Shown here: in pieces, positions 9,922-51,630 of the stretch
Numbering within the stretch: position 1 is the first letter of the stretch
Layout: each line of letters opens with the position of its first letter
NCBI GenBank assembly: GCA_905221615.1
Contig: CAJNDT010006004.1
Span: 377,001-441,000 of the forward strand
DNA from: Symbiodinium sp. CCMP2592
Taxonomy: Eukaryota; Sar; Dinophyceae; Suessiales; Symbiodiniaceae
Reading direction: 5' to 3'
DNA: 64,000 nucleotides
Made by a program: the position numbers and the translations under genes
Notes under the pieces: model-generated
The model's input: the letters and a program-made list of their open reading frames with translations, nothing else
Database searches by the model: none
Told to the model about the DNA's origin: nothing

Positions 9922-9947
9922 TACATGGAGAAGGAGGACAACTTTCG

Positions 9948-12900
9948 ATGTCCTTCATCGGTGAACGTCGGAGTACCTTGGTGACCTTCGTAGCTCACCC
10001 TACAGGCGTCTGGTGTGAAATGGCTGGGGTTTCATTTCACACTATAGTGCCCAGTTGGCGAGCTTGCGATGGTTACCATATGCTCCTAGACAGGTCTGTA
10101 CAAACAGTGAGCGGCTTAGGCATTACTGTTTCTGTACAGGTCCTCCTGCCCACTCCATCATTCGTCCCTTCGCGCCAGAGCCAACGGCGACATTGGTCTT
10201 TTGCCGTTCCGATTGGCTCAGGGCATTCGTCTTCCTCGCGGAAGATAGAATACCACTGGGTTTGTGGTACTTCTATTCTCCCCTCGCCGGCCACCCAGGC
10301 CATTACTTATCATCAGCCGAATCACAGCAGTGGTTTTGGGTTCAAGCACTCGTTTGATTCTGTGGGACAATGCGCCAACTTTGGCTGCAGCCCAATTTTG
10401 CAGAAAAATTGTAGTGAATCCTCTTTTGCAGGAATGCTAGCGTCATGCACTCTTGCACCAGACAGGCGCCTAAGAAACACATCGGTGGCGCAGGGGTGTT
10501 CGCCTGTCCCTTTCTTGAATGACGCCCTCCTATGTCTCCTTTGTGAGGGTTTTGCCGGCATTTGTCCGCCAATTTTTGGTTTCCTGACGCTTTGTTTGCT
10601 CAGGACCATGTGTAGGCCACTGCGATTGGCCACAAAGCCTGCCGGATGGATTGTTGCAGGTACTTTTTCAGCAGGAAGGTATGGGCCAGCCATTGCACTA
10701 GGGGCTGCAGGGAGCCCACGATACGCTAGCATGAACTGGAAGCCCAGAGTCAAGCATGTTGTTGCAAGACGTCCTACAAGAATAAGCTGGGGTTCCTCTA
10801 TAGGTGCTCGTCTTTGCTCCCTCCTGCTTGGTTGTCTTTCATGCCCTGCCGGCTGCACGCCTGCAGGACATCAGGGACTGCTAGCTTGCAGTGATTGGGC
10901 GCCATTCCTGCAAGGCCCTGCATTTGTGCTGGAACAGCCAGTTGAAGGTATCAAGCAGTCGCGGATACCTGCCAACCCACAGCATGCACCAGGACAAAGG
11001 CTGCCACACCAGCCAAGTAATCAAGTGCCTTACTACATGCCAGAGCACTTGCCCACGACTGCGACGCCACACATTATGACACCACACCCTGCAGGCCCAG
11101 GCGTTCATGCCAATGCCGAAGAAACCCCTGCTGGGACCAGACCAGATGTCATCCATGCAACATTTGTGGTACTAGCAGTCGATTATGTGCCCGAAGTAGT
11201 CTCCATAGCACTTCGAGCGCCAGCGACTGTCCAAGGGGCACTAGATGGGGTTGCAGAGGCCAGAGATGACATCAAGGAGGCCCTGCTGCCGCAGCTACAT
11301 GTCGTGCAACCGCAGCCTACCACACATTTCGCCACACTGATTGCACTCCCTGTGTGGTGTGATGCGGAGCCTGTAGTGTGCATCGATGCCACTGCCATCG
11401 ATGGCAGGATGTATGCCACACATCTCCCCTTGAGAGCCAACAAGGAACGTATTTGCAGGGCTGTTGGCTTTGTTGTACCGGAGGCTGTCAATGTCTATGC
11501 CTTTGGGCATCCCGCTCCGATAGGCCAGGACGAATGGATAGACATCCAACCCTCCGGATGCATCTTTGTCGTCAACGCGTGGGATCCAGGTCGAATTGGG
11601 GCCATGCTGTCTGTCATGCTTCTCAGCTCCTTTGGGTGGGAGCTAAGCCCTCGACCGCCAGAACCAGCACTTGCAAGGCGTTTTTGTTGCACCGTGCAAG
11701 ATCGAGGCGCTCACCTCCTCTCTTGGCCACGTCGGCCTGCAAGATACTGGAGGGAGGTGCTTGCTGAGGAATACGGTCTCCGGGAGGACCGCATGACGCT
11801 ACAGCCTGCGAATCCTCAAATTGAGGATGTCAGCTTGCACGGCTTTCCATGCACAGCCGTAGTCGGCATCACCGAAGAAATAAGTGTCATACCCATCCCT
11901 CCCGGTAGGCTCATCCCCAGTGTGAAGGCCTACATTGTCGATGCCAGGCCGATTTTACAGGGAATTCATCTTGAACTCGTTGAGGAAGGGATTGTCGAGT
12001 TCAATGATTTCCATCGAGATTTTACATTTTTCATGCCAGAGGGATTCGAACTGCAAGTCGACAATGTGCACATCAGCGAGGGCAGGATGCACGTTTCCCC
12101 TGGCCAGGTGCTCATAGTCAGCTATGTACGGCCCACTTCCAGCGAGGACAGTGAGTCCGATTCTGGTGACTCTGACTCAGAACCCCCAGGAGGCAGAGAC
12201 GGCGATGAATCTGCTGAACCGGGGTCCGATAATGACGAAGCAATGCAACCTGACCAAAGCGACAGTAGTGGCGAACGTCGGTCACCAGAAGATGGAGACC
12301 ATGACGAACATAGACGCGGCAACACTCCTGATAGGAGCCGCACACCACCGCGTCGGCGTTCGGCAGTGCATGATGACATTGCTGTCAAGCTCTTCCCCAG
12401 CGGAGAGTCCATCTCTACAGATTCCCTGACAGCCACCTGGCCGACGCAGCCGACTATTCTGACTGCCAAGCTGCATGCCGAACCTAAGAGTGACGGACCA
12501 GCCGATGAGCAGACTCTCAGCAACCTTGCTAGAGATGCTGCCAACCTAGGAGGTGCATGGCCGACGCTCACTGGAGAAGGTGACGTAAGGCGGCCGCTCT
12601 CTGCCACCAATCCTGATTCAGAGGGTTCTGTCGAAACTGCTGTAGCTTGGGTGTCGGTTGTTATCTCTGTACCAGGCTATATTTCAGAATTCCTGAGGAT
12701 AGCCGCAACACTGCCTGCCACACCCAGCGAAGTCACAGAGATAGTCCGACAAGAAAGGGATCCTGACAAGGCTGCCTCATTTCCTAGCCTTACTGCCGTC
12801 ACCTCCCAAACAATCTCAGGAGCACTTGTATACGTTGCCGGCCCTCAATGGTCAGATCAGGTCATAGTGCTTCTTGACTTCACCCGTGTTGACGGGAGGC

Positions 12901-14153
12901 TCTATGCCGTACCTTTACCTAGGTACATCAATGCTGCCTACGTTGCCTACCTTGCAGGACGTAGCGTGCAGGAACTGAAAATTTATGTTGGGACGGACAC
13001 GGAGCCACTGCCTGAGGCTTCTCAAGTTGACGTCTACACAGGATGCTGCATCTGCGTTGTCCTCGCAGCTGCCATGCCACCGCCCAATCCTGACTTTTCA
13101 TACCTTGTCAGCAATCCTGCCTTCTGGGATCGGCAGCCTCACATCCCAGATCTGACTGATGATCTCACGTACTGCCTCGCACATGAAACGCACCATGTCT
13201 TAGTACAGGCTAGTCGGGGGCAGCCCACCAGGTACAGGACTGACATTGCCAGGGCTCTTGGTATCTCGGTCGCTGAACTTGTACTGCAGCCTGCTCAGCC
13301 ACGCGTTGCTGATACTACTGTCGACGGCTTTCCGTGTCGGACTGTCATTGCCTCTGCTCGAGAGCATCGAAGTATGCGCTGCCCTGATAAGGTTCTGGTT
13401 TTGGTTGACTGTCGCAGGTTCCTTCAAGGTTGGGTCTCTCTATCCGTAACAAGCGGACATCTGCCCGTTGAAGAGACACTTGCAAGCATTCGTACCCTCG
13501 CCCCGGCACACATACAGATAGGTATCCCAGAAATACCAGTCGGGGCGAATGTTTACCCTGTACATGCCGGACAGGTCCTTGTCGCAGATGTGATGTCACA
13601 TGACCAAACCCGTCCAGTGAATCATCTTGCCGAGCCCCAGGAGCCCAGCGGCGCACCCGACGCCCAAGACGAGATTTCCCCTGCCGGAGGATATCCAACC
13701 GCTTCAGGCACAACGACCCACCCAGATTCTGTCATGCCGTCTCCCGCGCAAGAAGCAGCTGGGACTACTCCGTCAAGAAATACCTCCGACGGGCCAGGGC
13801 CAGAGGGTCAAGGGCCCGATATTGCAAATCAGAGATTCCTTCAGGCAAGATTCCTTGTATGCTCGCCCGAGTACCTGCCTGAAGTCGTCGATGTGCGCCT
13901 CCCGACGCCGAGCAGCGTCGACGATGCATTGCATTCTGTTGAGGCCGCCAGGCATCCACAGGCAAGGCAAAGATTTCCCAGGATCGTGCCAGTGCAGCCA
14001 CAAACCGACATCAAGTTTGCATTCGTGCTTGCATTGCCAGCATGGCCATTCGCAGGGGTAGGGGTTTGCTTTGACAGTCGACGGGTCAATAATAGAATCT
14101 TCTGCCTGGACGCACCCCCGTACCTCGACAGCCAGGCTCGCGGAAATCCCTGA
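9948..14153 (+). CDS. LINE ORF2: large protein with repeated ~320-residue domains
   Basis: 1401 codons from the first ATG after ORF1 (the frame is open further upstream, but there it only shadows ORF1). Residues 1 to ~400 are Ser/Cys/Leu-rich with hydrophobic patches and no recognised domain. Two full copies of a ~320-residue domain follow, at about 11155-12135 and 12645-13600, and a third starts at about 13840. Shared landmarks are a start like (Y)xPEVVxIxL, an (I/L)ALPxW segment, VCID-type and DGRMYA-type strands, and a late LQPAxPxxxDxxxxGFPC motif. Copies are joined by acidic Ser/Asp/Glu-rich and Arg/Pro-rich linkers (SSEDSESDSGDSDSEPPGG). The frame ends at 14153 inside the third copy, which continues one frame over. 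Function is unknown; it matches no LINE domain I know by name. Confidence 0.75.
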   Translation: MSFIGERRSTLVTFVAHPTGVWCEMAGVSFHTIVPSWRACDGYHMLLDRSVQTVSGLGITVSVQVLLPTPSFVPSRQSQRRHWSFAVPIGSGHSSSSRKIEYHWVCGTSILPSPATQAITYHQPNHSSGFGFKHSFDSVGQCANFGCSPILQKNCSESSFAGMLASCTLAPDRRLRNTSVAQGCSPVPFLNDALLCLLCEGFAGICPPIFGFLTLCLLRTMCRPLRLATKPAGWIVAGTFSAGRYGPAIALGAAGSPRYASMNWKPRVKHVVARRPTRISWGSSIGARLCSLLLGCLSCPAGCTPAGHQGLLACSDWAPFLQGPAFVLEQPVEGIKQSRIPANPQHAPGQRLPHQPSNQVPYYMPEHLPTTATPHIMTPHPAGPGVHANAEETPAGTRPDVIHATFVVLAVDYVPEVVSIALRAPATVQGALDGVAEARDDIKEALLPQLHVVQPQPTTHFATLIALPVWCDAEPVVCIDATAIDGRMYATHLPLRANKERICRAVGFVVPEAVNVYAFGHPAPIGQDEWIDIQPSGCIFVVNAWDPGRIGAMLSVMLLSSFGWELSPRPPEPALARRFCCTVQDRGAHLLSWPRRPARYWREVLAEEYGLREDRMTLQPANPQIEDVSLHGFPCTAVVGITEEISVIPIPPGRLIPSVKAYIVDARPILQGIHLELVEEGIVEFNDFHRDFTFFMPEGFELQVDNVHISEGRMHVSPGQVLIVSYVRPTSSEDSESDSGDSDSEPPGGRDGDESAEPGSDNDEAMQPDQSDSSGERRSPEDGDHDEHRRGNTPDRSRTPPRRRSAVHDDIAVKLFPSGESISTDSLTATWPTQPTILTAKLHAEPKSDGPADEQTLSNLARDAANLGGAWPTLTGEGDVRRPLSATNPDSEGSVETAVAWVSVVISVPGYISEFLRIAATLPATPSEVTEIVRQERDPDKAASFPSLTAVTSQTISGALVYVAGPQWSDQVIVLLDFTRVDGRLYAVPLPRYINAAYVAYLAGRSVQELKIYVGTDTEPLPEASQVDVYTGCCICVVLAAAMPPPNPDFSYLVSNPAFWDRQPHIPDLTDDLTYCLAHETHHVLVQASRGQPTRYRTDIARALGISVAELVLQPAQPRVADTTVDGFPCRTVIASAREHRSMRCPDKVLVLVDCRRFLQGWVSLSVTSGHLPVEETLASIRTLAPAHIQIGIPEIPVGANVYPVHAGQVLVADVMSHDQTRPVNHLAEPQEPSGAPDAQDEISPAGGYPTASGTTTHPDSVMPSPAQEAAGTTPSRNTSDGPGPEGQGPDIANQRFLQARFLVCSPEYLPEVVDVRLPTPSSVDDALHSVEAARHPQARQRFPRIVPVQPQTDIKFAFVLALPAWPFAGVGVCFDSRRVNNRIFCLDAPPYLDSQARGNP

Positions 14154-17100
14154 CAGTACGCAAGTTGCCGTCTTTGTCGGCTCCAGGGCCCACGCGCTCC
14201 CCCCGCATACTACCGTGAGAGTTCAGGAAGGCGACATGATCCAGATCTTGCCGATTGGGCACGGCTTTGCCACTGTTGCTGAGCTCGGCGACATGCTTGC
14301 ATCTAGTCATGGGTGGAGTCAAAGCGCCGCTTTGCCTGGTGACTTCAGAGACCATATTTGGCTGCTAGCCGACAATGGCCACCAGAAATTTCTAGTCACA
14401 CCTTCCAGGCGAGCGAGACTCCGACAGGAGGTTGCCGGAGTAGTTGGATGTGCAACATCCGAATTTCTGCTTCGGCATGCATTCCCTACCCTGTACAACC
14501 ACATGCATAGAGGTTCCATCACTAAGGCCATCACACTTGCAACAGCCCGCAATCAAGACGACGTTGACAATGCAGGCGACACTACAGTCTGCTTCCTTGA
14601 TTCTCGGCCAGTTTTGCTAGGTTTTTCCTGGTTGTATGCACCACGTGGTCGAGTTGCACACCAGACCATAATCCATCGACACAGGGATCGATGCCCTGCA
14701 GGTCATGTCCTTGGTTTTTCGGTTGATCAACTTGTGCCGCGCCCGCTGCAGGATGACCTTCAAGTAGTCGACTCACAGGTCGTGACACTCTACTACTTGC
14801 CGGTAGCAGACAGTGAACCCGGCCTCTTACCACCAGGCGACAGCTCCCCACATGATGGGGGAGGACCACATGACCCTCCATTCCAAACTGAGCCTGGCCA
14901 CTCAATGCGGCAAAGGGACACTGGAGAGTCCTATGCTTCTCCTTCTGGAGCCTCTCAAGGCACCCCAGATGCTGGCACAGGCAGCTCCGGTTCCTGCAGG
15001 CGTACTGCTGAGAGGCGCTCCAGCCCACATGCCAAACGTACCGGAGCACATCTCCCTGCTGTATACAGTCGAGTAGTCAAGTGGAATCATGATCGCAGAT
15101 GTCATGTGCACACCTCTGTCCTCCTGCAGCAGATTCTGTTTGGGCTTTTGGGTAGCCTCCTTACGCTCATAACGTTTGTTGGCGTCGGGGCCTTTGGAAC
15201 CCTCCTTTGTGTCACACTTTGTCGCAGACACAATCAATATGGGCGGCCTCCTCGAAGTTTCCTCATCCTCGTCGTCTTTGGCTGTCTTTTTCAGCTTGCA
15301 AATGCCACCAAGTCCTCAGGGCGGACGCAAACTGGCACTTGCATCCTCCTGGATGATAGCCACCAGAGCGCTCACCTCTCCATGCAAGACCCTCCTCAGG
15401 TCGGTCTCATGCTTGGTCGAGCCATACCGACACCATGCAGGGGTCGCCGCATGCCGGGCCTTCCGGAGGCGCCTGTTGTCACAGAACCGCTTGACATCGG
15501 AGAGATAGGTCCAACTCTCCTTGAGGACAGTGTCAAGCGTCCAGATTCTCGAGCATACTTCAATGCTTCTACTCTGCTCGCGACACTTGTCGAGCACTTT
15601 CAGGAGCAAGGAGCCATTGCCGCAGACAATGGCCGTGTTCAGAAGCACTGCCATTTGTCTCTGACAGATGCGATACCTGTCAGCTCACACCAGCAAAATG
15701 TGCTGTCCCTGCGGAAGATCTTACCTCTTCCCACGCCTGCAGATGCCAATGATTGGCTCGACAACGACTGGAGAGCTTTGATCCACCCCAGTCTCATCTC
15801 CGCCAAGTTCCTGCACCAGATCCTTGCCATCCCTCTGTGGCATCGCAATCGAGGTGAAGGAGCCATCAAGGAAGTCATGATTTTCACTGATGGCTCGGCC
15901 TCTACCACACCATTTGATATTGCTCCATGCTCATGGGCGTTCACTGTCTGGATATTGACAGAATCCGGACTGCGCTTTTATGGTGCGGCAGCGGGACAAG
16001 CCATGCCCACTGCAGCCCCGTACCATATAGGAGAGGTTGGTAACACTGCCTTGACAGGCGAGTTATTAGCGCTCTCATGGGCCATTGTGTGGGCCATCGA
16101 GTTCGGACAACCATTTGGTGCCCCCATAGCTTTTTACTATGATGCTGAGGCAGCTGGAAAGAGCATTTTTGGGGAATGGCGACCAGTCTCATATCCCCAT
16201 CACGATAGAGGGGTCACGGTTGTAGATTTTGCCTCCTCCCTTAGGCAGTATCTTCAAAGGGTTTGTGACATCCGTCATCGTCATGTGAAAGGGCACTCAG
16301 GAGCTCTCGGTAATGAGGCCACAGATGCTGTTGCCAAGACCGCACGGCGTAAAGCCTATGTCGCCGATGCCACGTGCTTGCCATCGTGGCCTGCAGAGCT
16401 GTTTGCCCACCCACTGCTGAAATGGACATGGATGCTCGCTGCGAATGGCCCGGATGTTCCAACTCTTTTTGCTCTAGAGTCGGAAGCAGTGCGCCTTCGT
16501 GACAGACCCGTACATCCCACAGTTGCACCCAAACTTGGGATAACTCAGGTTACGCCTCCTAAAGGCCGAATTGATTTCAGCCTCACAGTTGTTTCCTTCA
16601 ATGTCCTTACGCTTAAGGATGTCAAAGGTAAGACTGGACCTGTCCCTGCCGGTATGATGCTCATGGGTCGACGGGCAATGCTCAAGCGTGAGTTCGAGCG
16701 ACACAAGCCCCTCTTGATAGGCCTCCAGGAAACACGCCTCCAAGAATCTGTGCTTGCCCCGGACGACCAGTATTACATTTACCAGGCGTCTGCCACTGAT
16801 CGTGGCGTTGGAGGCTGCGCGCTGTGGGTCGCCAAAAAGACCCCTTACGCATGGGCGAGCGGGGAGAAGTTTTATTTCCAAGAACAGCACATTGTCATTG
16901 CCGGACATTCTTCCCGGCATTTGTGCGCTTCCATCATTGCGCCACATCTTCGACTCTTCGTTATCGTTGCCCATGCTCCCTCTTTAGCCAATCACCCACG
17001 TAGTGAAGTCATTGAGTTTTGGCAACAACGGGCTTCCGACATATCTCGTCGCCCGGATGGTACGCAATGCATTCTTCTCGTAGACGCCAACTCACAGGTT

Positions 17101-20100
17101 GGCGATGTCGAGTCAGAGCACATATCCAATCATGATGCAGAGCCGGAAAACGATGCCGGCGTGCTGTTCCATCATTTTCTAGCACAAACATCGCTGTTTC
17201 TTCCTGCGACCTTTGAGGGGGTCCACACCGGGGGCAGCCACACTTGGAGGTCCTGCCTAGGACAGACCCACCGCATAGATTACGTAGGGCTGCCAACTGT
17301 TTGGAAGGAGATGAGCATTCGTACACAGGTTTTGCACGGGTTTGAAGCATTACAGCTGCGAGAGGATCACTCGCCGGCTGTTGCGAGCATCCAATTTTGC
17401 AAGCCGGTTACTGATGCACCATACCTCGACTGTCGGCGCAGATGCGTACGTCCGCACCCGGCCGTTTCTGATGAACAGCAGACTGAGCGTCAGGCTCTAC
17501 TGCAAAGCCTTCCGCACTGCCCATGGCACGCCAGTGTCGATCAGCAGTACGCGCACTTTGTGCAACAATGGACCGAGGCTGGTCGTGGCATGACGCCTCC
17601 GACTAGTTCTCGCCCAGTGCAGTGCTACATACAACAAGGCACAGTCGTTACTGCTAGATGGTGCAAAGCCCTACGCACCTACCTCAATGCCGAACGTCAA
17701 GAGCGCCAGCGTCGCTGGCTTCTAATCGGCTTTGCCGCTTTTCGACTGCTTCGTGACCACGAGGCTTTTGCTAGTCCGGCCCACGAAGCCGCGGACACTT
17801 GGCTGCGCGACATGGACTACAGTGAAGCCATTGCAGTTGCCACTCTGAGGGTGCTATCCAAGGCACTTCGTAGGCGTGTCTCCAATGACAGGATTGCCTA
17901 CCTCAATGGCCTTACTCGTGAGGTCACACTGTGCGACCTCAAACATCCAGCAGATTTATACCGAACAGTTCGGAAGGCATTCCCTACAGCGAAATCATCG
18001 CGTCGCAACGGCCTTAGGCCACTGCCTGCTGTCATGGATCAGGAGGGATGCTTAGTCACCACTCCTGCAGCCAAATCCGAATGCTGGCGTCGACATTTTG
18101 CTGAACAGGAAGCAGGCATGACAATGACGGCGCAGGAATACGTGGAAGCCTTCCCCACCACTGTTGTCGACAAGCCTACTTTTGATCTTCAGTCCGTTCC
18201 ATCGCTGTGTGACCTGGAGTCCATCATTGTGGGATTAAAGGTTCGAAAGGCAGCCGGCCCGGACAACATCTCTGCCGAGTTGCTGAAGATTAGCCCCACA
18301 GTCGCTGCCAGGGCCTTGTTTCCCATTACCTTGAAGACGACTCTGGCTCTTCAAGAGCCAGTTGAGTTCCGCGGAGGGGTTTTATGTTGCCTGGCGAAGA
18401 AGATCGGCTCTTCACTCCAATGTAGCAACTTCAGATCAATCCTCATTTCTTCAATTCCAGCGAAGGTCTATCATAGGCATTTGAGGAACCAACTACTGCC
18501 AGTTCATGCCAGCCACAAGCCGTCACTTCAGATGGGAGCCCTAGGCGGCACAGGCATAGAGGCAGTGGCACTCGCCGCCCGCAGCTTTCAGCTACGTTAC
18601 CATCAGCAACGAAAGCTGTGGGCCCTCGTGTTCGTGGACATTCAGGCAGCCTTCTATAGAATCATTCGCCAGATGCTAGTGCCGCACCGGGACGACGACA
18701 CGCAGCTGCTGGCCCTGTTTCACCGCATGGGTCTACCGTCGGGAGCAATCGACGAACTCCTGGCACAGCTGCATCGGCTTTCGATCTTACCGACATTGGA
18801 TGCGCCGGCACAGCTGACAGCGATGGTTCAGGACATGATGAGAGCGACTTGGTTCAGAGTCGACGCTTACGACGTCCTAACATGGACGGCGTGCGGGTCG
18901 CGCCCCGGCGACCCTGCCGCCGACATTCTATTTGCACTGTCGTTCAGCGCATATCTTCGCACCACGCAGCATGCACTGCAAGATGCGGGCCTAGACCTTG
19001 CAGCCGAAGAAAATGCAGACAGGCATCCATGGGCCAGTGGAGCGGAAGGCGAGACCATTGCCTGCCCTGCCTGGGCAGACGACTTCTTCGTGCCCCAACA
19101 GGGCAACAGTCCAGGCCAGTTAGTTGACAAAGCAGTGCGAGCGACTGGCATTGTCACTTCCAGAGCCACGTCTATCGGCATGCGCTTGACGTTTGCGCCA
19201 ACGAAGACCGCAGTTCTTCTCCCTGCTGGCATTGATTGGTCACAACACTGCGACATATTAGTCCACACTGCCGATGGTCCAGGCCTGACAGTATGGGACT
19301 CCGTCGCACAGGAGGGGCACGTTTTGCCAATCGTACATGCCTACAAGCACCTCGGGGGCATTCTTACTTCGAGCGCGACGCCGAAACCAGACCTTCTGTT
19401 GCGGCGTTCACAGGCCTATGGGGCCGTGCGTTCCTTGAAACGTAAGCTGTTTGGCAATCGCGACATCCCCCTCGCCATCAGGCGAACACTCCTCCATGCT
19501 TTGGCCCTCTCCAGGCTTGTTCACTCTAGTGCGGCTGTCATTTTGCCTGCCGCCATCCATCAGCGTACCTGGGACAGAATGTATGTCGATGCATGGCGGG
19601 CATTGACACCTCGGGTTGCAGAGGACAAATCTGTCCACAGTCTAGAGGTCCTAAGGAAGGCTGCTGCCCCTTCACCGCCACTTGCCCTTGCCAAGGCCAG
19701 AGCTGCCCTCCTACGACAGATAACAACCAATGGACCTGCAGTCCTACGACAATACTTGTTTGATCATTGGTACGGGCACCCTGCCAGCTCTTGGTTCAGA
19801 CAGGTTGAGGCGGACATACACCTTGTCAGCTCCTACCTGCCACAGTTGAAGCCTCTTTTTCAGGGATCGGAGCCCTTACATACCTTGCTTGATGCCCTCG
19901 CTGAGGATGCAACATGGTGGCTCCAGCAGGTAAAAAAGGCACATGGCGTCTTTCAGAAGGGCTTGGCGCAATGGGCCAAAACCGGGTCCATACACTTTGC
20001 GGATGGAGGCGCGGCGGACTCGCAGCAGCTAGAGTCAGCCCCTCGTCCCTACCAGTGTCACCTTTGTCCCGCGGGTTTTCCTTTAAGGAAACACTTAGGG

Positions 20101-20589
20101 ACACACCTCTCCAGACGGCATCAGGTGTGGAGTCCGGCACGTCATTTTGCATTTGGAGACTACTGCTTGGCCTGTCATCGTTGGACAGGCAGCATCCGTC
20201 TGACCCAGATGCACCTGAAGACTAAGGACCGCTGCCTACGGCGAATGTGCAGCATTCTGCCACCTATGTCGACAGAGGAAATTCGTTCTGTCGAGGCTGC
20301 TACCGTCGCCGCTGAGAAATGCCTGCGCAAAGGCCAGTGGCGCAGCTTTCGCGGGGTACAGCAGTCCTCCACACACTTCTTCCCCCTCATCCCTACGGCC
20401 GCAGAGCGTGTACAGGGGTTGGACTTTTATGACGAGGAGGTGACTTTAGACACCTTGAAACCCGTCTACCAGCCCAGGCAGGAGGACATTACATGGATAG
20501 ATTCTCACATTGCCGCTCGCTCAGTCGAAGGTCCGAGGACGACAGCGAAGGCCTTTTGGATGCGGGGTCCATGTGCATGCTCCTTTTGA
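14071..20589 (+). CDS. LINE ORF3 / pol: RNase H, APE-type endonuclease, reverse transcriptase, zinc fingers
   Basis: A 2172-codon frame. The listed start is a TTG; the first in-frame ATG is at 14236, inside a domain, so translation probably enters from ORF2 by a frameshift. Residues ~25-250 finish the third copy of the ORF2 domain. Hydrophobic segments lie at about 350-380 and 396-412. RNase H spans about 602-760, with D607 (TDGSA), E664 (GELLAL), D691 (YYDAEA) and D752 (NEATDAVA). The APE-type endonuclease spans about 840-1105, with N844, E887 (GLQETR), D1005/N1007 (VDAN), D1070 (RIDYVG) and D1099/H1100 (EDHSP). The reverse transcriptase spans about 1385-1720, with D1523 in FVDIQAAFY and the catalytic pair D1670/D1671 in WADDFF instead of the usual YADD. 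A C2H2-like finger begins at C1996 (CHLCPAGFPLRKHLGTHLSRRH) and a second Cys/His cluster follows. All three active sites look intact. Confidence 0.93.
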   Translation: MTVDGSIIESSAWTHPRTSTARLAEIPDSTQVAVFVGSRAHALPPHTTVRVQEGDMIQILPIGHGFATVAELGDMLASSHGWSQSAALPGDFRDHIWLLADNGHQKFLVTPSRRARLRQEVAGVVGCATSEFLLRHAFPTLYNHMHRGSITKAITLATARNQDDVDNAGDTTVCFLDSRPVLLGFSWLYAPRGRVAHQTIIHRHRDRCPAGHVLGFSVDQLVPRPLQDDLQVVDSQVVTLYYLPVADSEPGLLPPGDSSPHDGGGPHDPPFQTEPGHSMRQRDTGESYASPSGASQGTPDAGTGSSGSCRRTAERRSSPHAKRTGAHLPAVYSRVVKWNHDRRCHVHTSVLLQQILFGLLGSLLTLITFVGVGAFGTLLCVTLCRRHNQYGRPPRSFLILVVFGCLFQLANATKSSGRTQTGTCILLDDSHQSAHLSMQDPPQVGLMLGRAIPTPCRGRRMPGLPEAPVVTEPLDIGEIGPTLLEDSVKRPDSRAYFNASTLLATLVEHFQEQGAIAADNGRVQKHCHLSLTDAIPVSSHQQNVLSLRKILPLPTPADANDWLDNDWRALIHPSLISAKFLHQILAIPLWHRNRGEGAIKEVMIFTDGSASTTPFDIAPCSWAFTVWILTESGLRFYGAAAGQAMPTAAPYHIGEVGNTALTGELLALSWAIVWAIEFGQPFGAPIAFYYDAEAAGKSIFGEWRPVSYPHHDRGVTVVDFASSLRQYLQRVCDIRHRHVKGHSGALGNEATDAVAKTARRKAYVADATCLPSWPAELFAHPLLKWTWMLAANGPDVPTLFALESEAVRLRDRPVHPTVAPKLGITQVTPPKGRIDFSLTVVSFNVLTLKDVKGKTGPVPAGMMLMGRRAMLKREFERHKPLLIGLQETRLQESVLAPDDQYYIYQASATDRGVGGCALWVAKKTPYAWASGEKFYFQEQHIVIAGHSSRHLCASIIAPHLRLFVIVAHAPSLANHPRSEVIEFWQQRASDISRRPDGTQCILLVDANSQVGDVESEHISNHDAEPENDAGVLFHHFLAQTSLFLPATFEGVHTGGSHTWRSCLGQTHRIDYVGLPTVWKEMSIRTQVLHGFEALQLREDHSPAVASIQFCKPVTDAPYLDCRRRCVRPHPAVSDEQQTERQALLQSLPHCPWHASVDQQYAHFVQQWTEAGRGMTPPTSSRPVQCYIQQGTVVTARWCKALRTYLNAERQERQRRWLLIGFAAFRLLRDHEAFASPAHEAADTWLRDMDYSEAIAVATLRVLSKALRRRVSNDRIAYLNGLTREVTLCDLKHPADLYRTVRKAFPTAKSSRRNGLRPLPAVMDQEGCLVTTPAAKSECWRRHFAEQEAGMTMTAQEYVEAFPTTVVDKPTFDLQSVPSLCDLESIIVGLKVRKAAGPDNISAELLKISPTVAARALFPITLKTTLALQEPVEFRGGVLCCLAKKIGSSLQCSNFRSILISSIPAKVYHRHLRNQLLPVHASHKPSLQMGALGGTGIEAVALAARSFQLRYHQQRKLWALVFVDIQAAFYRIIRQMLVPHRDDDTQLLALFHRMGLPSGAIDELLAQLHRLSILPTLDAPAQLTAMVQDMMRATWFRVDAYDVLTWTACGSRPGDPAADILFALSFSAYLRTTQHALQDAGLDLAAEENADRHPWASGAEGETIACPAWADDFFVPQQGNSPGQLVDKAVRATGIVTSRATSIGMRLTFAPTKTAVLLPAGIDWSQHCDILVHTADGPGLTVWDSVAQEGHVLPIVHAYKHLGGILTSSATPKPDLLLRRSQAYGAVRSLKRKLFGNRDIPLAIRRTLLHALALSRLVHSSAAVILPAAIHQRTWDRMYVDAWRALTPRVAEDKSVHSLEVLRKAAAPSPPLALAKARAALLRQITTNGPAVLRQYLFDHWYGHPASSWFRQVEADIHLVSSYLPQLKPLFQGSEPLHTLLDALAEDATWWLQQVKKAHGVFQKGLAQWAKTGSIHFADGGAADSQQLESAPRPYQCHLCPAGFPLRKHLGTHLSRRHQVWSPARHFAFGDYCLACHRWTGSIRLTQMHLKTKDRCLRRMCSILPPMSTEEIRSVEAATVAAEKCLRKGQWRSFRGVQQSSTHFFPLIPTAAERVQGLDFYDEEVTLDTLKPVYQPRQEDITWIDSHIAARSVEGPRTTAKAFWMRGPCACSF

Positions 20590-23985: not shown

Positions 23986-24057
23986 GGGTGTGTGTGAGTG
24001 CTTCTGTTCTGGCGCTTACGGGCCTTGGGTTCTGATCATTCGGGGTTTTTGGAGATG

Positions 24058-24582
24058 TAGGGTTGAGGGGTTAGGGGTTTAGGGTTTAGGGGTGGAGGGT
24101 TTAGGGGTTTAGGGTTTAGAGGTTTAGGGGTTTAGGGGTCTAGGGTTTAGGGGTGGAGGGGTTAGGGGTTTAGGGGTGGAGGGTTTAGGGGTTTAGGGGT
24201 GGACGGGTTTAGGGGTTAAGGGTTTAGGGGTTAGAGGTTTAGGGGTTTAGGGGTTTAGGGTTTAGAGGTTTAGGGGTTTAGGGTACACAATCCAAGCCCA
24301 TGCTGAAAATTGGTTTAGGGTTTAGAGGTTTAGGGGTTTAGGGGTTTAGGGTTTAGAGGTTTAGGGGTTTAGGGGTTTAGGGTTTAGGGGTTTAGGGGTT
24401 TAGGGGTTTAGGGGTTTAGGGGTTAGGGGTTAAGGGTTTAGGGGTTTAGGGTTTAGGGGTTTAGGGTTTAGAGGTTTAGGGGTTTAGGGGTTTAGGGTTT
24501 AGAGGTTTAGGGGTTTAGGGGTTTAGGGGTTTAGGGTTTAGGGGTTTAGGGGTTTAGGGGTTTAGGGTTTAGGGTTGAGGGG
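24058..24582 (+). repeat. Large interstitial telomere-like array (TTTAGGG / TTTAGGGG)
   Basis: More than 500 bases of TTTAGGG mixed with the 8-mer TTTAGGGG and variants (GTTTAGAGG, GGTGGAGGG). One interruption at about 24287-24310 (ACAATCCAAGCCCATGCTG) recurs near 2817. Confidence 0.95.
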
Positions 24583-24810
24583 TTCGGCAGTCTGGGTTTC
24601 AGTTTTTGCTTTCTGGGTCTTGGGGGCTAAGGGTTTGCTTGGCACCTTGGGTAGTTTGGGGACCCTCCGAGCCGGTCTAACCCCGACCAAAGCTACTGAG
24701 TCCTAGAGTCCTAAACCTTACTTGTTCGCGGGTAGTTATAAGTGGGACTGAGGGGTTCCTTTAAGGGTTCTATAGGGTTTAGGGTGTCTTTAAGGGTTCT
24801 ATACGGTTTC

Positions 24811-24917
24811 GGGTTCATGGGTAGTTGTAAGTGGGGTTATAAGTCCCCGAACATGGGTTATACTTATGGTTGCCCTGCTTATAACCCCACTTATAACTAC
24901 TCATGAACCTCCAAATA
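24811..24917. mobile_element. Family A element, complete
   Basis: GGGTTCATGGGTAGTTGTAAG ends mirrored by CTTATAACTACTCATGAACC. A partial left arm precedes it at about 24725. Confidence 0.85.
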
Positions 24918-25082
24918 CAAGCTCTCCAGCCCGGACATGCCTCAACCCTGAACCCAGGCCTTTTCAAGATTATATGGTCCTAAAGGGAGGGTGGTTCAAG
25001 GGCGGAGGGTACAAGGGATCCTTCAGGAACCTGAGGGGAACCTTAGGGAGCACGAGACCATAGGGATCCTAGAACAAGAGGC

Positions 25083-25315
25083 TTGTGCACTGAAGCCGCG
25101 CGAGCTGGAATAGATTTTGAAATCTCAGAAGGGCACCCGCTTCGCAAAGGCCCAAGCACTAGGTGTCACATGCATGTTTCTCTGATCTGCCACAACGACG
25201 GCGACACTTTCTTTGGAAAGCCACCGCCGGCGCACAGTTCCAGCGCCAACGCGAAAGTGCTTAAGCACAACAAGAAGCCGGTCATTTGGTCATTTGGGGT
25301 GCTTCCCTGCTGATA
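25083..25315 (+). CDS. Possible exon, unrecognised
   Basis: An open frame whose middle reads CHMHVSLICHNDGDTFFGK, then an Ala/Ser/Lys-rich stretch (SSANAKVLKHNKKP) and a stop. TCAG at 25127-25130 could be an acceptor. There is no repeat signature in this stretch, unlike its flanks. No domain recognised; a chance frame cannot be excluded. Confidence 0.2.
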
Positions 25316-25562
25316 GAATGTAGACCTAGTGTTCAGGTTTAGAGTAGAGCATCTGGTAGAGGGTGAAGAGGTTGAACGTTTTGGCTTCAGTGCTTCTCTT
25401 AGATGGTCCTGACGCCCGACAGTCTCATCCTAGATCAGGCTATCATAAAAACGTAAGCCCCAACGCATGAGCAGGACTGTGGATGTGCCAGAGAAAATTC
25501 GACTGGAAGGGTTACTTTGGTTCTCACAAGACTACCCAAGGGTACTGTAAGGTTGCCAATAT

Positions 25563-25705
25563 AGGGGCCTTAATATTATCTACACTACCCTGCTGCGTGT
25601 ATTCAGCCATGCAGGAGGCAACAAGATTTGGGGGTTCCTTATTCTAATTATACTGTAATACACCCCAAACCCTGTTACCAACTATTATTATTGAGGCCTC
25701 TGTAT
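25563..25705 (+). mobile_element. Family E element with internal insertion
   Basis: The arms TAGGGGCCTTAATATTATC and CTATTATTATTGAGGCCTC are interrupted by about 35 foreign bases at about 25592-25626. Confidence 0.75.
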
Positions 25706-25878
25706 TACTCGTACAAGACATGTCGGCAAGGCTGATCTTCTGAAAGAAATGCGGGATCTGCTGGAGGACCGAAAGCCCTGCAAAAGCCGTGCAAACTAAT
25801 CTTCTGTTCCTGAAACCTTGCTCCCCCGGAGCCGGCACTGTTTAATATAAAAGAGGGTCCATATACACCACTATTATC

Positions 25879-25934
25879 ATGGAATTAGGTCCCTAAGGCC
25901 ATAATGAGGATGGTCTTTTGGGACCCAATTCCAT
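25879..25934. mobile_element. Small palindromic element
   Basis: ATGGAATTAGGTCCC and GGGACCCAATTCCAT around a ~26-base centre. It abuts the family D element at 25948. Confidence 0.75.
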
Positions 25935-25947
25935 AAGGGTAGTATTT

Positions 25948-26019
25948 GGGAGTTTCCGAAAATTAGGGGGTGCCTTACTTTGGGGTCCTTATAATAAGGC
26001 CCTTTTTTCGGAAACTCCC
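25948..26019. mobile_element. Family D element, short form
   Basis: GGGAGTTTCCGAAAATTAGG ... TTTTCGGAAACTCCC. The GGATCC centre seen in longer copies is missing. Confidence 0.9.
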
Positions 26020-45837: not shown

Positions 45838-46200
45838 CTACTACTCGTATAACTATTTACTACTAGTACTACTAATTACTACTGCTGCTACTACTACTAC
45901 TACTAATTACTACTGCTGCTACTACTACTACTGCTACTGCTACTGCTGCTGCTGCTGCTGCTACTGCTACTGCTACTGCTACTACTACTGCTACTACTAC
46001 TACTACTACGACTACGACTACGACTACTTCTACTACTACTACTGCTACTTCTACTGCTGCTACTTCTACTTCTACTACTACTGCTACTACTACTGCTGTT
46101 GCTACTACGTACTACGTACTACGTGCTACGTACTACCTACTACCTACTACCTACTACCTACTACGTCTACTACTACTACTAGCCACCCCCCCCCCCGCCC
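45586..46200 (+). repeat. Long (CTA)n-type trinucleotide array, first copy
   Basis: About 600 bases of CTA with CTG and CTT variants, ending in TACCTACTACC units and poly-C. It contains the landmark TACTCGTATAACTATTTACT, which is repeated in the second array. Confidence 0.95.
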
Positions 46201-46229
46201 CTACCAACCGCCTCTTTTACATACTCTTG

Positions 46230-46645
46230 TAACCCACATCCGTTTTACTCGGTATTTACAGCACTTTCGTCATGTAGGAACATCTTATGAAGCTAGAAAT
46301 TTCACCTGCGAGTTTTCAAACTCCAGCATCCGATCCGATTGTGGATTTTTTTGTTGTGGGGGTGCGTGGGTGTGCGGGAAGAATGAAGTCGAGATTGTTA
46401 CGCGGACACCTCGAATTGTTACGCGGACACCTCGAACAACATCTCCGCAAGAGCCATTTTACTTGGTATTTACAGTACTTTCGGGATGTCCGCCATCTTA
46501 TAAAGTTGCCAAGCCTACCTCTGGACTTTTCTACGTTGTCTGTTTGCCTTTGCGAGGGCTTTCAGCGAAAACTCGAAATTGGGTGGGGGAAGGCTTGTTT
46601 TACTCGGTCTTTAAAGTAGTTCATCTGGTATGTTAAATCTTCGTC
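46230..46645 (+). repeat. Imperfect repeats between the CTA arrays
   Basis: TTTTACTCGGTATTTACAGCA (about 46243) recurs as TTTTACTTGGTATTTACAGTA (about 46460) and TTTTACTCGGTCTTTAAAGTA (about 46599). TTGTTACGCGGACACCTCGA is repeated in tandem at about 46395-46437. No gene is supported. Confidence 0.75.
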
Positions 46646-46816
46646 ATCATCATCATCAACAGCGAACATCATCACGACTTGAACAGAACAGAGAGGCATG
46701 CAGATTGCGACTGCACGTGTCTCGCAGGTTTTTTTGGAGCTGGCAGTCATTGCTTGGCGCGTGTCCCTGCAAGGTTTGGTGGGGCTAGCAGTCAATGGTT
46801 GGCGTGGAGGCTTGAG

Positions 46817-47045
46817 CTACTAGGAGCAGTTCCTGTGGATATTCGCTGGCAACTGTTCGAGGCTGCCTGTACGTTATCAGCCCCCCCCCCCCGCCCCACA
46901 CCCCCCCACGCATGCAATCGCATCATGAGCATAGCATACAAAGCATCCTGGAGCATCTGGGCTAGTAGGAGCAGTTCCTGTCGATATTGGGTGGCAACTG
47001 TTCGAGGCTGCCTGTACGTTATCCGCCCCCCCCCCCCCCACCCCA
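46817..47045 (+). repeat. Tandem duplication (~145-bp unit) ending in poly-C
   Basis: TAGGAGCAGTTCCTGT ... CAACTGTTCGAGGCTGCCTG occurs twice, each copy running into CCCCCCCCCC and CACCC. Confidence 0.9.
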
Positions 47046-47093
47046 AGCAACGCATGTAAAAGGGGGTGGTTGGTAGGGGGGGGGGGGGGGCCG

Positions 47094-47136
47094 CCTACTA
47101 CTACTACTACTACTACTGCTACTACTACTACTACTG

Positions 47137-47172
<36 letters not shown>

Positions 47173-47173
47173 T

Positions 47174-47213
<40 letters not shown>

Positions 47214-47671
47214 GCTGTCGCTGCTGCTACTACTGCTACTACTGGTACTACTACTACTACTACTACTACTGCTACTACTACTACTACTATTACTACTGCT
47301 ACTCCTACTACTCGTATAACTATTTGCTACTAGTACTACTAATTACTACTGCTGCTACTACTACTACTACTGCTACTGCTACTGCTGCTGCTGCTGCTGC
47401 TGCTACTGCTACTGCTACCGCTACTCCTACTGCTACTACTACTACTACGACTACGACTGCTTCTACTTATTCTTCTACTACTACTACTGCTACTTCTACT
47501 ACTGCTACGTCTACTTCTACTACTACTGCTACTACTTCTGCTGCTGCTAGTACGTACTACCTACTACCTGCTACCTACTACCTACTACCTACTACCTACT
47601 ACTGCTACTACTACTACGTACTACGTCTACGACGTACTACGTCTACTACTACTACTACTGCTACTACTGCA

Positions 47672-47706
<35 letters not shown>

Positions 47707-47730
47707 GACTACTACTCCTGCTACTACTAT

Positions 47731-47765
<35 letters not shown>

Positions 47766-47871
47766 CTGCTGCTGCTGCTACGACTACTACTACTACTACT
47801 ACTCCTGCTACTACTACTACTTCTACTACTACTACTACTCCTTCTGCTGCTGCTACTACTGCTACTACAGG

Positions 47872-47908
<37 letters not shown>

Positions 47909-48018
47909 GCTACTGCTACTGCTACTGCTACTACTACTACTACTACTACTACTACTCCTGCTGCTGCTACTACTACTACTCCTGCTGCTGCTACTACTGC
48001 TACTACTGGTACTACTAT

Positions 48019-48772: not shown

Positions 48773-51630
48773 ATGGCGGATTCCGAGAAGCAGATGGAGA
48801 TGAAGGTAAGCCTCAAGAAGAGTGTTGGCTTCTTCATCCGGGCGGCCTCTGTGCCCTGGATAGCCATTGGGGGAATGTTAAACTTTCTGGCCTTATTATC
48901 CTTATTCATTTGCTCTATCTTGAAAGTTTAAGCTTTTTTTGGGCCCGGTTATTGCAGAAGAGAGGTGTTCCTCCAGGGTGCCGACGCCCGCGAGGCTTCC
49001 GACGGCGTCATGGCCCGACCAGCTCGAGAGGCAGTGGAGGAGCTCAAGGTTTCAGGCCTGGGAGATGCCATTTCTGTGGCGATCGCCGTTGCGCAACGCA
49101 TGGAGGCCGACGGCTTGGCAGAAATCATCGGGGTACAGACAGAGTATCTTTGTTCATAGTTGGGTATCATTTTGTTTTTTATGAGTACTTAAACCCTATA
49201 AGGAATAAACATGTGCATGTTTAATCTTATCCCAACCGTGAACTTAGGTATCAGGAGATGTCCGGCATCTTCACGCCACGGATGATCATTCAACTCAGGC
49301 GGCAGTTTCGACCGAGCCTCGGTGAGGAGGGTGAAGTGAGTGTAGCCACGTGGAATCTCGCCGCCATCAACAACAATCCGTTCGAGTATTGGGTCAGCCA
49401 TTCGGACGAATCCTACAAGGAACTGATGGACCAGGTGTTATAGGGGCCTAAATTTACCCATGGTATTTTGGGGGGTTCCTTATTGCAATTATAGTATAAT
49501 ATACCACCAAGCCCTATTCCGTAAGACCAGGTGGAGAGCTTCATCGATGCACCCGGTGCCCGGGATGTCCCAGTGGCCGAGGTCTTCCCTTCATCGCTGT
49601 TTCAGGAGCTGCTGGGTCTCTAGGCATCCAAAAGTGGGCCCTTTTCACTTTTTGTAAGATGTAGGGTTGGGGTCTTTAGGGGTTTGGGGTTTAAGGGTTT
49701 GGGGGTTTAGGCCTGGAAGCAAAAAAAGGTTCCTTATGAGTATAAAGTTCCCCAGTATTCAGTATACCAAAAAGGGAGCCCCTTTTTCTTCCTAGGCTAC
49801 TGGGCATCCGAGGTCTTATGAAGGCTGAAGGCTGGCAAGGTCTTGACAAGGTAACTGCAGTCTGGGAGTCCGACTTCTCAAAGAGGAAGATCATCTCCGG
49901 GGTACTCAAGGAGAAAGAGCTTGGTGCAAAGCGATTGTGCTCCATGCCAGACCGGTTCACCAACACCATCAACATCGCGTCAGGAGGCCCCCAAACCCTA
50001 CTAATTATTGAGGCAGCTACCATATAGAACCCTACTTTAGATCCCTTATAGAACCCTCTAAAGGACCCCTTTACAGGGGACCCTGTTCTATGAAACCCTA
50101 AACCCTAAACCGAAGGCCCGGTCTTCAGACCGACGGTGATCAACCACAGCGCGAACAAGCTCAGTTCTGTGGCTTTGTGGTGGCCCCAATGGGTGGACTT
50201 CATGTTCAAGGGGCCCCTAGAGATGCTTAACTTAAAGGATCATGGGACTTAGTAACTAGGGTTCCTTAAAGGGCTCCTTTATAAAGGGATCTACAGGGGT
50301 TCTATTATAGGGTCTACTTAAAGGATCATGGGACTTAGTAACTCGGGTCATAAATAGGGTAACTCTACTTATAACCACAATTAAGGTACTTATGACCTCT
50401 TGGTAGCTGAGTGGGTACACTTTACACTTTTTGGGATAATATTTCCCACTGTAAAACTGAAAGTGCATAGTTTTTGGGGCTTATGAACTGGGCAACTAAG
50501 GATGCGCACCGGCAACAACGGGGGCACGAAGAGGATACGACCTTGCGAGATGCTCAGCACCATTAAGAAGGCCAAATACCCCGCGATCACCGAAGAGGAG
50601 GAGGCCATCTCCGTCCCACTTCAATGCCTATGCTTAGCAATCTTCGATGCGATCCTGGTCCACATGATGCAGGTGTTGTCTCCAGATGGCCACTGGCTAC
50701 GGATAAAGGAATCGATCTGCAATGCAACCTTCCGCAAGAAGAGTGGCATCACCACCAGAATACTTCAAAGCTACAGCGGATGCGCTGTGATCTGTTTGCA
50801 GGAAGCTTCTGAAGCTTACTTGCAGAGCCTTCGGCAGAGCAGCCTTGCGAAGACGCATCACATCGTGATTCCTGAGAAGGTGGACGGGCAAAGAGATCAG
50901 AATTCGGCGTTGCTGCTAAGTCGGATAGCTTTCCCCATGGGCGCCGAGAAGGAGATCACGGATGACGTTGTCGCAGCGGTTGAAGGAAGCAAGCTGGAGG
51001 TCGGAGATCTCATCGCCGTGCGGGCGACGCACAGCTCGGGACGGCGCCTTCTTGTCGCATCCTTCCACGGTGACACAAACGGTCAGGCAACGGCGCCAGT
51101 GGTTAAGGCACTGCAAGGAGCCCTCTCGGGCGATATGCTGCTTTTTGGCCTGGATGCGAACACCTACCTCAAGGGCAGCACCTCGCTCTACGGTGTGCAG
51201 GACTTTCTCCAAGAGTGCCGAGGGCGTGACTTCCAAGTCTGCTGGCCGGAGGGCGTGGACATGTCCGAGTGCCTAACCACCTGCAATGCACGGACCTTCC
51301 TCCAGCCGCAGCTGAACAAGGCCCTGGGCTTCGGAGTACCATACTTTGTGTACTTTTTTCTTAAAGGAACCATTTTTGAAAGAACAGCTTATGCTTTTCT
51401 CTCCCTGGTTACTTAAAAGCCCGGAGGCCTGTCCCAGCGCAAGGAAGCTGGAGATGGGTGACGTCAACCCAAAGGACCACATCGTCTTCAGTCGTGAAGC
51501 CTTCGAGTCCGTCCGAGTGATCAAGGACAACACGGGCCACGGGGAGTACGTCGAAGGAGTGTGCTTCCCCTCGCTTCGATTTCCAAGTGACCATGGGCTA
51601 GTCGCTGCTGTTCTGCGGCCGAAGCTTTGA
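48773..51630 (+). CDS. Alba-like domain fused to an endonuclease/exonuclease/phosphatase domain (8 exons)
   Basis: Exons: 48773-48850, 48965-49143, 49248-49434, 49531-49607, 49796-49986, 50116-50221, 50501-51320, 51427-51630. They total 1842 bases, giving 613 residues and a TGA with no frame break. Residues ~45-104 look like an Alba nucleic-acid-binding domain (EELKVSGLGDAISVAIAVAQ ... GLAEIIGVQTEYQEM ... PRMIIQLRR). From ~115 an EEP-fold enzyme follows: N122 in VATWNLAAINNN, E374 in CLQEAS, H462 in SFHGDTNG, D491/N493 in GLDANTY, D601/H602 in FPSDHG. These match the metal-binding and catalytic positions of EEP hydrolases, which cleave phosphodiesters or phosphoesters; the substrate is unknown. 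Introns are 96-279 bases with donors GT, GT, GT, GC, GC, GA, GC. Caveats: exon joins were chosen by frame and family likeness, and two adjacent genes (second start at ATGTCCGGC, 49257) cannot be ruled out. Confidence 0.8.
48851..48964 (+). mobile_element. Intron 1, introner-like (GT-AG)
   Basis: 114 bases. GTG begins both the intron and exon 2. The 3' part (GGGCCCGGTTATTGCAGAAG) recurs in an intergenic element at 29.5 kb. Confidence 0.75.
49144..49247 (+). mobile_element. Intron 2, introner-like with terminal inverted repeats (GT-AG)
   Basis: 104 bases. GTATC opens the intron and opens exon 3. Just inside are the arms GTTCATAGTTGGG and CCCAACCGTGAAC, and the acceptor TTAG lies between the right arm and the repeated GTATC. 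No other copy of this family was found. Confidence 0.85.
49435..49530 (+). mobile_element. Intron 3, a family E introner with 8-bp duplication (GT-AG)
   Basis: 96 bases. ACCAGGTG stands at 49430-49437 and 49526-49533. Between the copies lies a family E element (ATAGGGGCCTAAATTTACCC ... TTTTGGGGGGTTCCTTATT ... AAGCCCTATTCCGTAAG). The first copy gives the donor GT, the second the acceptor CAG. Confidence 0.93.
49608..49795 (+). mobile_element. Intron 4, introner-like (GC-AG)
   Basis: 188 bases. GCTGCTGGG at the intron start matches GCTACTGGG at the start of exon 5 (8 of 9). A short TTTAGGG-type tract sits inside. Using this GC donor restores the frame (...QELLGIRGLMK...). Confidence 0.75.
49987..50115 (+). 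mobile_element. Intron 5, with family E right half (GC-AG)
   Basis: 129 bases. GCCC opens both the intron and exon 6. Contains CCCAAACCCTACTAATTATTG (family E right half), ATCCCTTATAGAACC units and CCCTAAACCC at its 3' end. Confidence 0.8.
50222..50500 (+). mobile_element. Intron 6, made of family B and family H elements (GA-AG)
   Basis: 279 bases. GATGC opens both the intron and exon 7. The interior is a family B element, apparently with a duplicated left arm (TTAAAGGATCATGGGACTTA at about 50232 and 50321), whose right end is replaced by a family H element (GGTAGCTGAGTGGGTACAC ... GGGCAACTAAG). The H end supplies the acceptor AAG. Confidence 0.85.
51321..51426 (+). mobile_element. Intron 7, introner-like (GC-AG)
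   Basis: 106 bases. The intron opens GCCCTG and exon 8 opens GCCTGT. The arms AAGGCCCTGGGCTT and AAGCCCGGAGGCC are roughly inverted. The 3' half recurs at 40.7 kb. Confidence 0.75.

Follow-up and report, generated by a model that had tools for sequence, protein, structure and literature searches.

A Symbiodinium gene whose introns appear to derive mostly from short DNA transposons of several families

We have analyzed a 64,000-nucleotide stretch of the genome of the dinoflagellate Symbiodinium sp. CCMP2592 (contig CAJNDT010006004.1, positions 377,001 to 441,000; hereafter the window), in which a gene of eight exons lies on the forward strand at window positions 48773-51630. Comparison of its seven introns with the rest of the assembly indicates that most of them are very probably introners, namely non-autonomous DNA transposons of approximately 100 bp with CT...AG ends, which would have inserted into exons with a 4-bp target-site duplication. 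The assembly searched comprises 1,098,105,373 bases in 5,383 contigs (the window being C5142:377001-441000); each genome search scored the best 40 candidates, and all copy counts given here are lower bounds.

The gene and its splice junctions

An earlier note on this DNA had joined eight exons in an unbroken frame, and these joins were reproduced: all eight exons are open and together give 1842 nt, or 613 codons plus a stop codon, with no internal stop. After intron 4 was moved to 49616-49812, the spliced protein has 610 aa and aligns without gaps to its best relative, P0001, which is also 610 aa long and identical at 570 of 610 positions. The longest contig of this relative has 1,875 bases, so that its 610 codons must be uninterrupted, i.e., intronless.

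Of 8000 candidates scored in a protein search, 849 were returned as relatives, and their names and labels were taken from the best 120 of the 849. Among the matches listed, the closest relatives include Symbiodinium natans, Durusdinium trenchii, and Polarella glacialis; P0002 is labelled as a transcript, and the listed relatives carry a precomputed PF26695 assignment, some of them being named endonuclease/exonuclease/phosphatase. The N-terminus of the protein gave a sub-threshold Pfam match to Alba and a weaker one to Rpp20, and a profile of ten sequences found no match among solved structures at E 0.01. When the assembly was searched with the DNA of the whole gene, no exon match was present among the scored candidates except the gene itself. 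We regard the host as an ordinary protein-coding gene of a dinoflagellate.

Nine relatives were aligned to the protein in order to check the junctions. Junctions 1 and 2 are gapless in the eight relatives that cover them, and junctions 3 and 7 in all nine (9/9). P0009 alone carries three additional residues near junction 5, and it alone lacks one residue directly after junction 6. The start of intron 1 at 48851 restores the stretch RAASVFLQ, which is present in the relatives covering that part; a start at 48822 breaks the frame, and a start at 48806 keeps the frame open but does not restore this stretch.

The first join of intron 4 was rejected, as it adds the residues GIR, which are absent from all nine aligned relatives; with the corrected boundaries these residues disappear and the GC donor becomes GT. 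The correction is also supported by the genome, because 38 of 40 outside matches to this intron reach position 193-197 of its 197 nt, and the end initially proposed corresponds to position 180, inside the repeated unit. The eight-of-nine repeat GCTGCTGGG, which the earlier note had taken for the duplication at this junction, was thus misassigned, and the true junction duplication is GTCT. Inspection by eye of the intron ends (49608-49812) reveals two extra short direct repeats beside GTCT, namely GCTGCTGGG/GCTACTGGG and GGCATCC, the former of which had misled the initial placement.

Element families, their edges, and their duplications

Introns 1, 2, 4, 6, and 7 represent five families of approximately 100-bp elements with CT...AG ends, which are designated I1, I2, I4, H, and I7, respectively. 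The five consensus sequences are 99-112 bp long, and all start with CT and end with AG. Terminal inverted repeats of the kind known from miniature inverted-repeat transposable elements (MITEs) are clear in the H, I2, I4, and I7 consensuses, and the ends of the I1 consensus match at the outermost bases only (CT...AG). The inverted ends of the I2 element in intron 2 agree at 12 of 16 positions. The similarity of the H consensus to each of I1, I2, I4, and I7 exceeds that of all 300 dinucleotide shuffles, and I1 versus I2 is not significant (41/300 shuffles); shared ends and T runs raise such between-family scores. These comparisons suggest that the five families are probably distantly related members of one superfamily, which would have been mobilized by one type of transposase. 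MITEs are non-autonomous DNA transposons with inverted ends, and the present families resemble them in length (approximately 100 bp), in the inverted ends of four of the five families, in their fixed duplication length, and in their many copies; they differ in that copies sited in exons would also form introns. In a locus with I2 sequence (L040:61-304), tandem partial copies of the element, as seen by eye, end in AG beside a possibly coding stretch.

In the 1.1-Gb assembly, at least 38 further matches were scored for every one of the seven introns, and the searches with the five families yielded 231 to 1963 first-look candidates each. At least 39 other genome copies were found for intron 1 (77-83% identical), intron 2 (85-90%), the H part of intron 6 (88-91%), and intron 7 (85-89%); intron 4 has at least 40 other matches, and for element B within intron 6 at least 39 matches elsewhere at 86-93% were scored, plus one at 82%. 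Introns 3 and 5 match at least 39 other loci each, mostly over about positions 5-85 of 96 and within positions 1-104 of 129, respectively. Introns 1, 2, 4, and 7, whose genome-wide relatives the earlier note had left in question, therefore all have them. Its statement that introns 1, 3, 5, 6, and 7 are repeated within the window itself was borne out at E<0.01 for introns 1 (one place, 29 bp at 29.5 kb), 3, 5, and 6 (several to many places). Neither intron 2 nor intron 7 has an outside copy in the window at this threshold; the match of intron 7 at 40.7 kb nevertheless scores 38, above the maximum of 26 in 200 shuffles. Intron 4 has one place of this kind, a GGTTTAGGG-type repeat. At 24.0-24.6 kb, GGGTTTAGG-type repeats that match intron 4 are abundant.

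In introns 1, 2, 4, 6, and 7, the edges of the elements coincide with the splice junctions or are only a few bases away from them. Matches to intron 1 end no more than 2 nt from the intron end in each of the 39 outside copies that were scored, those to intron 2 stop near position 101 of its 104 nt and those to intron 7 at positions 101-106 of 106, and the H element terminates exactly at the 3′ splice site of intron 6. In intron 3, an element edge meets the junction on the left side only.

Target-site duplications were sought around outside copies with both ends present, in 337,650 letters of fetched loci, some of which overlap, after masking of the gene. The end patterns were set after inspection of copies, and the mispaired-flank control uses identical patterns; copies sharing the same flanks, such as L076 and L074, entered the count a single time. 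A loose end pattern for I7 gave 158 matches, mostly false, and was replaced by a stricter one. An exact 4-bp duplication was present in 44 of the 73 outside copies (I1, 8/11; I2, 5/12; I4, 4/7; H, 20/32; I7, 7/11), compared with 0.8-2.4% agreement at 4 bp among mispaired flanks, i.e., the flanks match within loci and not between them. Lengths of 3 and of 5-8 bp were exact in no more than one copy per family. An earlier tally for H, which covered 29 loci besides the gene's own, had found 17 exact duplications in 25 counted copies, L012 having been left out by hand and three loci having unrefinable ends.

At the gene's own junctions, the 4-bp flanks GTAT, GTCT, and GATG (introns 2, 4, and 6) are repeated exactly. 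Exact duplication lengths at the seven junctions, with the corrected intron 4, are 3, 5, 9, 5, 6, 5, and 5 nt, which sum to 38. In a permutation test, donors were paired with the acceptors of other introns, whereby the splice consensus is kept; the mispaired (off-diagonal) junctions had a mean duplication of 2.6, and the sum of 38 was reached in 4 of 5040 pairings, the true pairing among them. The earlier description of repeated bases at every junction thus holds in that duplications exist at all seven, with the one at intron 4 misplaced. In GTATC and GATGC, the terminal C had been over-read as part of the duplication: the families duplicate 4 bp, and this fifth base is the first C of the element.

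Intron 6 consists of GATG, CTTA, 169 nt of a second element (B), and then H from CTTG onward, and most inspected B copies extend approximately 29 nt, an inverted end, past the point that matches 50398. In the simplest history, H would have inserted with duplication of GATG, B would later have entered four bases inside H, and the right end of B would have been lost after that insertion. By eye, the B element (L002-L008 and window 50230-50398) has long inverted ends, ACTTAAAGGATCATGGGACTTAGTAA, and its inner stretch resembles an H terminus, like one element type within another.

In intron 3, family E sequence starts at base 4 or 5, and the right end of the element is missing or diverged. The 9-bp duplication GACCAGGTG of this intron is striking, yet family E does not account for it. 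Intron 5 starts within a stretch similar to the right half of family E and finishes in CCCTAAA-type repeats. All features of the gene are listed in Table 1.

Table 1. Exons, introns, and inserted elements of the gene (window positions).
Feature	Position	Strand	Details
Exon 1	48773-48850	+	Start codon 48773-48775
Intron 1	48851-48964	+	GT-AG; I1 element 48855-48964; flanks GTGC left, GTGT 48965-48968 right
Exon 2	48965-49143	+	Frame and relatives' alignment
Intron 2	49144-49247	+	GT-AG; I2 element 49148-49247; duplication GTAT 49144-49147 / 49248-49251
Exon 3	49248-49434	+	Frame and relatives' alignment
Intron 3	49435-49530	+	GT-AG; family E element; 9-bp duplication GACCAGGTG 49429-49437 / 49525-49533
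Exon 4	49531-49615	+	3′ end corrected
Intron 4	49616-49812	+	GT-AG; I4 element 49620-49812; duplication GTCT 49616-49619 / 49813-49816
Exon 5	49813-49986	+	5′ end corrected
Intron 5	49987-50115	+	GC-AG; family E-like right half and CCCTAAA-type repeats; GCCC 49987-49990 / 50116-50119
Exon 6	50116-50221	+	Frame and relatives' alignment
Intron 6	50222-50500	+	GA-AG; H split by nested B; duplication GATG 50222-50225 / 50501-50504
Nested B element	50230-50398	+	4 nt inside H; right end of about 29 bp missing compared with longer copies
H element, main part	50399-50500	+	Consensus 102 bp, inverted ends CTTAGTWGCTGAG; ends at 3′ splice site
Exon 7	50501-51320	+	Frame and relatives' alignment
Intron 7	51321-51426	+	GC-AG; I7 element 51324-51425; duplication GGCC 51320-51323 / 51426-51429
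Exon 8	51427-51630	+	Stop codon 51628-51630

Origin of the introns

Edges and duplications taken together strongly support a putative introner origin of introns 1, 2, 4, 6, and 7. Intron 3 is likely to have arisen in a similar way, by insertion of an old family E element, and the origin of intron 5, for which the 4-bp repeat GCCC is the sole sign of insertion, is left undecided. The proposal that all seven introns are introners is hence not fully borne out, because intron 3 is only likely and intron 5 open. In the proposed mechanism, the terminal AG of the element would serve as the 3′ splice site (the acceptor AG of intron 7 may owe its G to the duplication), and a duplicated GNNN would provide both the 5′ donor (GT, GC, or GA) from its left copy and the G that follows AG from its right copy. 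Splicing would remove the element together with one target copy and thereby restore the mRNA, so that the insertion could persist, and the second donor base would be whatever the exon target held. This anatomy of a 4-bp duplication, a carried 3′ site, and a co-opted 5′ site appears exact in introns 2, 4, and 6, and intron 1 fits it with three of the four duplicated bases. The putative donors are GT in introns 1, 2, 3, and 4, GC in introns 5 and 7, and GA in intron 6.

It might be argued that these are old spliceosomal introns which repeats invaded later and independently of intron origin. The genome is indeed rich in repeats: in a local control sample of 226 kb (the window and other genome loci, some overlapping), outside matches were found for 83 of 150 random intergenic 110-mers (60 of them over at least 40 bp), for none of the eight exons, and for 2 of 60 segments of the open frames at 8.8-20.5 kb. 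Since noncoding DNA is commonly repetitive, repeat content by itself is weak evidence, and the argument for introners is carried by the matching edges and the duplications, not by repeat membership. Late invasion would also suit the repeat edges of introns 3 and 5 and of the B part of intron 6, which do not meet both junctions. However, a late insertion would leave its duplication within the intron, whereas the flanks of introns 1, 2, 4, 6, and 7 show the duplication length of their own family, and the matches to these introns, in most scored copies, fill them or end no more than 4 bases from the 3′ splice site. We consider this explanation improbable. A further explanation is that the introns spread by reverse splicing of RNA copies, which, according to Gozashti et al. 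2022 (PMC9860276), has been put forward for introners of fungi, but the inverted ends of the H, I2, I4, and I7 consensuses and the varied 4-bp sequences duplicated at outside copies fit DNA transposition, and among the explanations weighed here it has the least probability.

The duplications might instead be no more than the dinoflagellate splice consensus, with G at the intron start and AG|G at its end. A G after AG is expected in nearly all introns, given the frequencies of AGG acceptors reported in PMC10666404, and intron 5 shows nothing beyond this consensus. The permutation control nevertheless preserves the consensus and still reached the observed sum in so few pairings, and outside copies, which are not selected by splicing, have 4-bp duplications of any first base (G in 11/73). 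For introns 1, 2, 4, 6, and 7 the outside-copy duplications contradict this explanation, which we regard as very improbable, though somewhat less so than reverse splicing. The constant G as first base in the gene, set against 11 of 73 outside, is suggestive only, as it is partly built into the placement of the junctions.

Several observations, together with the repeat background described above, weigh against introner origin. No exact 4-bp duplication is present in 29 of the 73 outside copies, and the relative of intron 1 at 29.5 kb has none (one of four bases equal). Within the gene, the flanks of intron 1 (GTGC/GTGT) agree at three of four bases, and those of intron 7 (GGCC/GGCC) are exact provided that the element has one additional base at its 3′ end. 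In family E, 29 copies examined for duplications of 2-9 bp, with the ends allowed to shift, yielded no convincing case (under a stricter definition of the ends, 1/19 was exact at 4 bp), and no element edge was established at either junction of intron 5. The gene copies are also diverged: identity to the consensus, compared with that of the median outside copy, is 81% versus 98% for I1, 88% versus 93% for I2, 62% versus 93% for I4 over the whole of intron 4 (where good preservation is limited to the last 49 bp of the element), 91% versus 96% for H, and 90% versus 98% for I7. As the gene copies are more diverged from the consensus than the outside copies, the insertions would not be recent, and the introns look older than many outside copies; the outside copies were mostly chosen by similarity to the gene, which calls for caution in this comparison. 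Finally, the splice junctions rest on protein alignment rather than on transcripts of this species, and the intron-forming role of the families was assessed in one gene.

Known introner systems, donor sites, and the rest of the window

The introner process itself is already published (Gozashti et al. 2022), and the present gene adds a new example that shows it clearly. According to that account (PMC9860276), introners of Symbiodinium microadriaticum have 4-bp duplications and inverted ends, carry their 3′ splice site, and obtain the 5′ splice site from the duplication; the likeness to our elements lies in this anatomy of duplication and splice-site origin rather than in sequence identity, and the gene described here differs from what is reported there in combining at least five families and a nested insertion. 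Many families in one genome, as here, are likewise on record for Polarella glacialis, where 15 introner families each comprise 100 introns or more (Roy et al. 2023, as summarized in PMC11453091). The introner elements of Amoebophrya similarly show inverted repeats and direct repeats of 3-5 nt over exon-intron borders (Farhat et al. 2021, PMC7789003); their splice sites are described as mostly non-canonical and variable, in contrast to the GT, GC, or GA donors with AG acceptors proposed here.

Table 2 of PMC10666404 gives AGG acceptors in 97.1% of the introns of S. natans, 96.5% in D. trenchii, 96.1% in Cladocopium proliferum, and 96.9% in P. glacialis, with lower values in Prorocentrum cordatum (79.7%) and Amoebophrya ceratii (56.5%); the donors of S. 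natans are listed there as GT (23.6%), GC (58%), and GA (18.4%). It is conceivable, though we would not call it likely, that a CT...AG superfamily with a 4-bp duplication has been among the chief sources of the introns of this lineage and that the well-known splice-site oddities of dinoflagellates are its footprint. If so, the GT, GC, and GA donors and the near-obligatory G after AG would both stem from the duplicated GNNN; we make no claim that this idea is unpublished. How introns are acquired is a long-standing question, and the gene may be read as a record of such gain, in which five apparently related families have left a mostly visible 4-bp footprint, the insertions differ in their divergence from the consensus, and one of them seems to have been struck later by another element. 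Its value lies in this detail and in the splice-site idea, which suggests a testable cause of the loose donor rule in dinoflagellates.

Elsewhere in the window, positions 8790-20589 contain two long overlapping open frames of 1787 and 2172 aa. The 2172-aa frame has a sub-threshold match to RNase H and a weak match to reverse transcriptase, and the 1787-aa frame has none; the stretch is probably a retroelement, and its GC content is 54-56%, compared with 43-52% elsewhere in the window. Neither an RNA family at gathering score nor a tRNA was found in the window. Strong GC skew of opposite sign was observed in two 2-kb blocks, +0.30 at 24001-26000 and -0.30 at 46001-48000.

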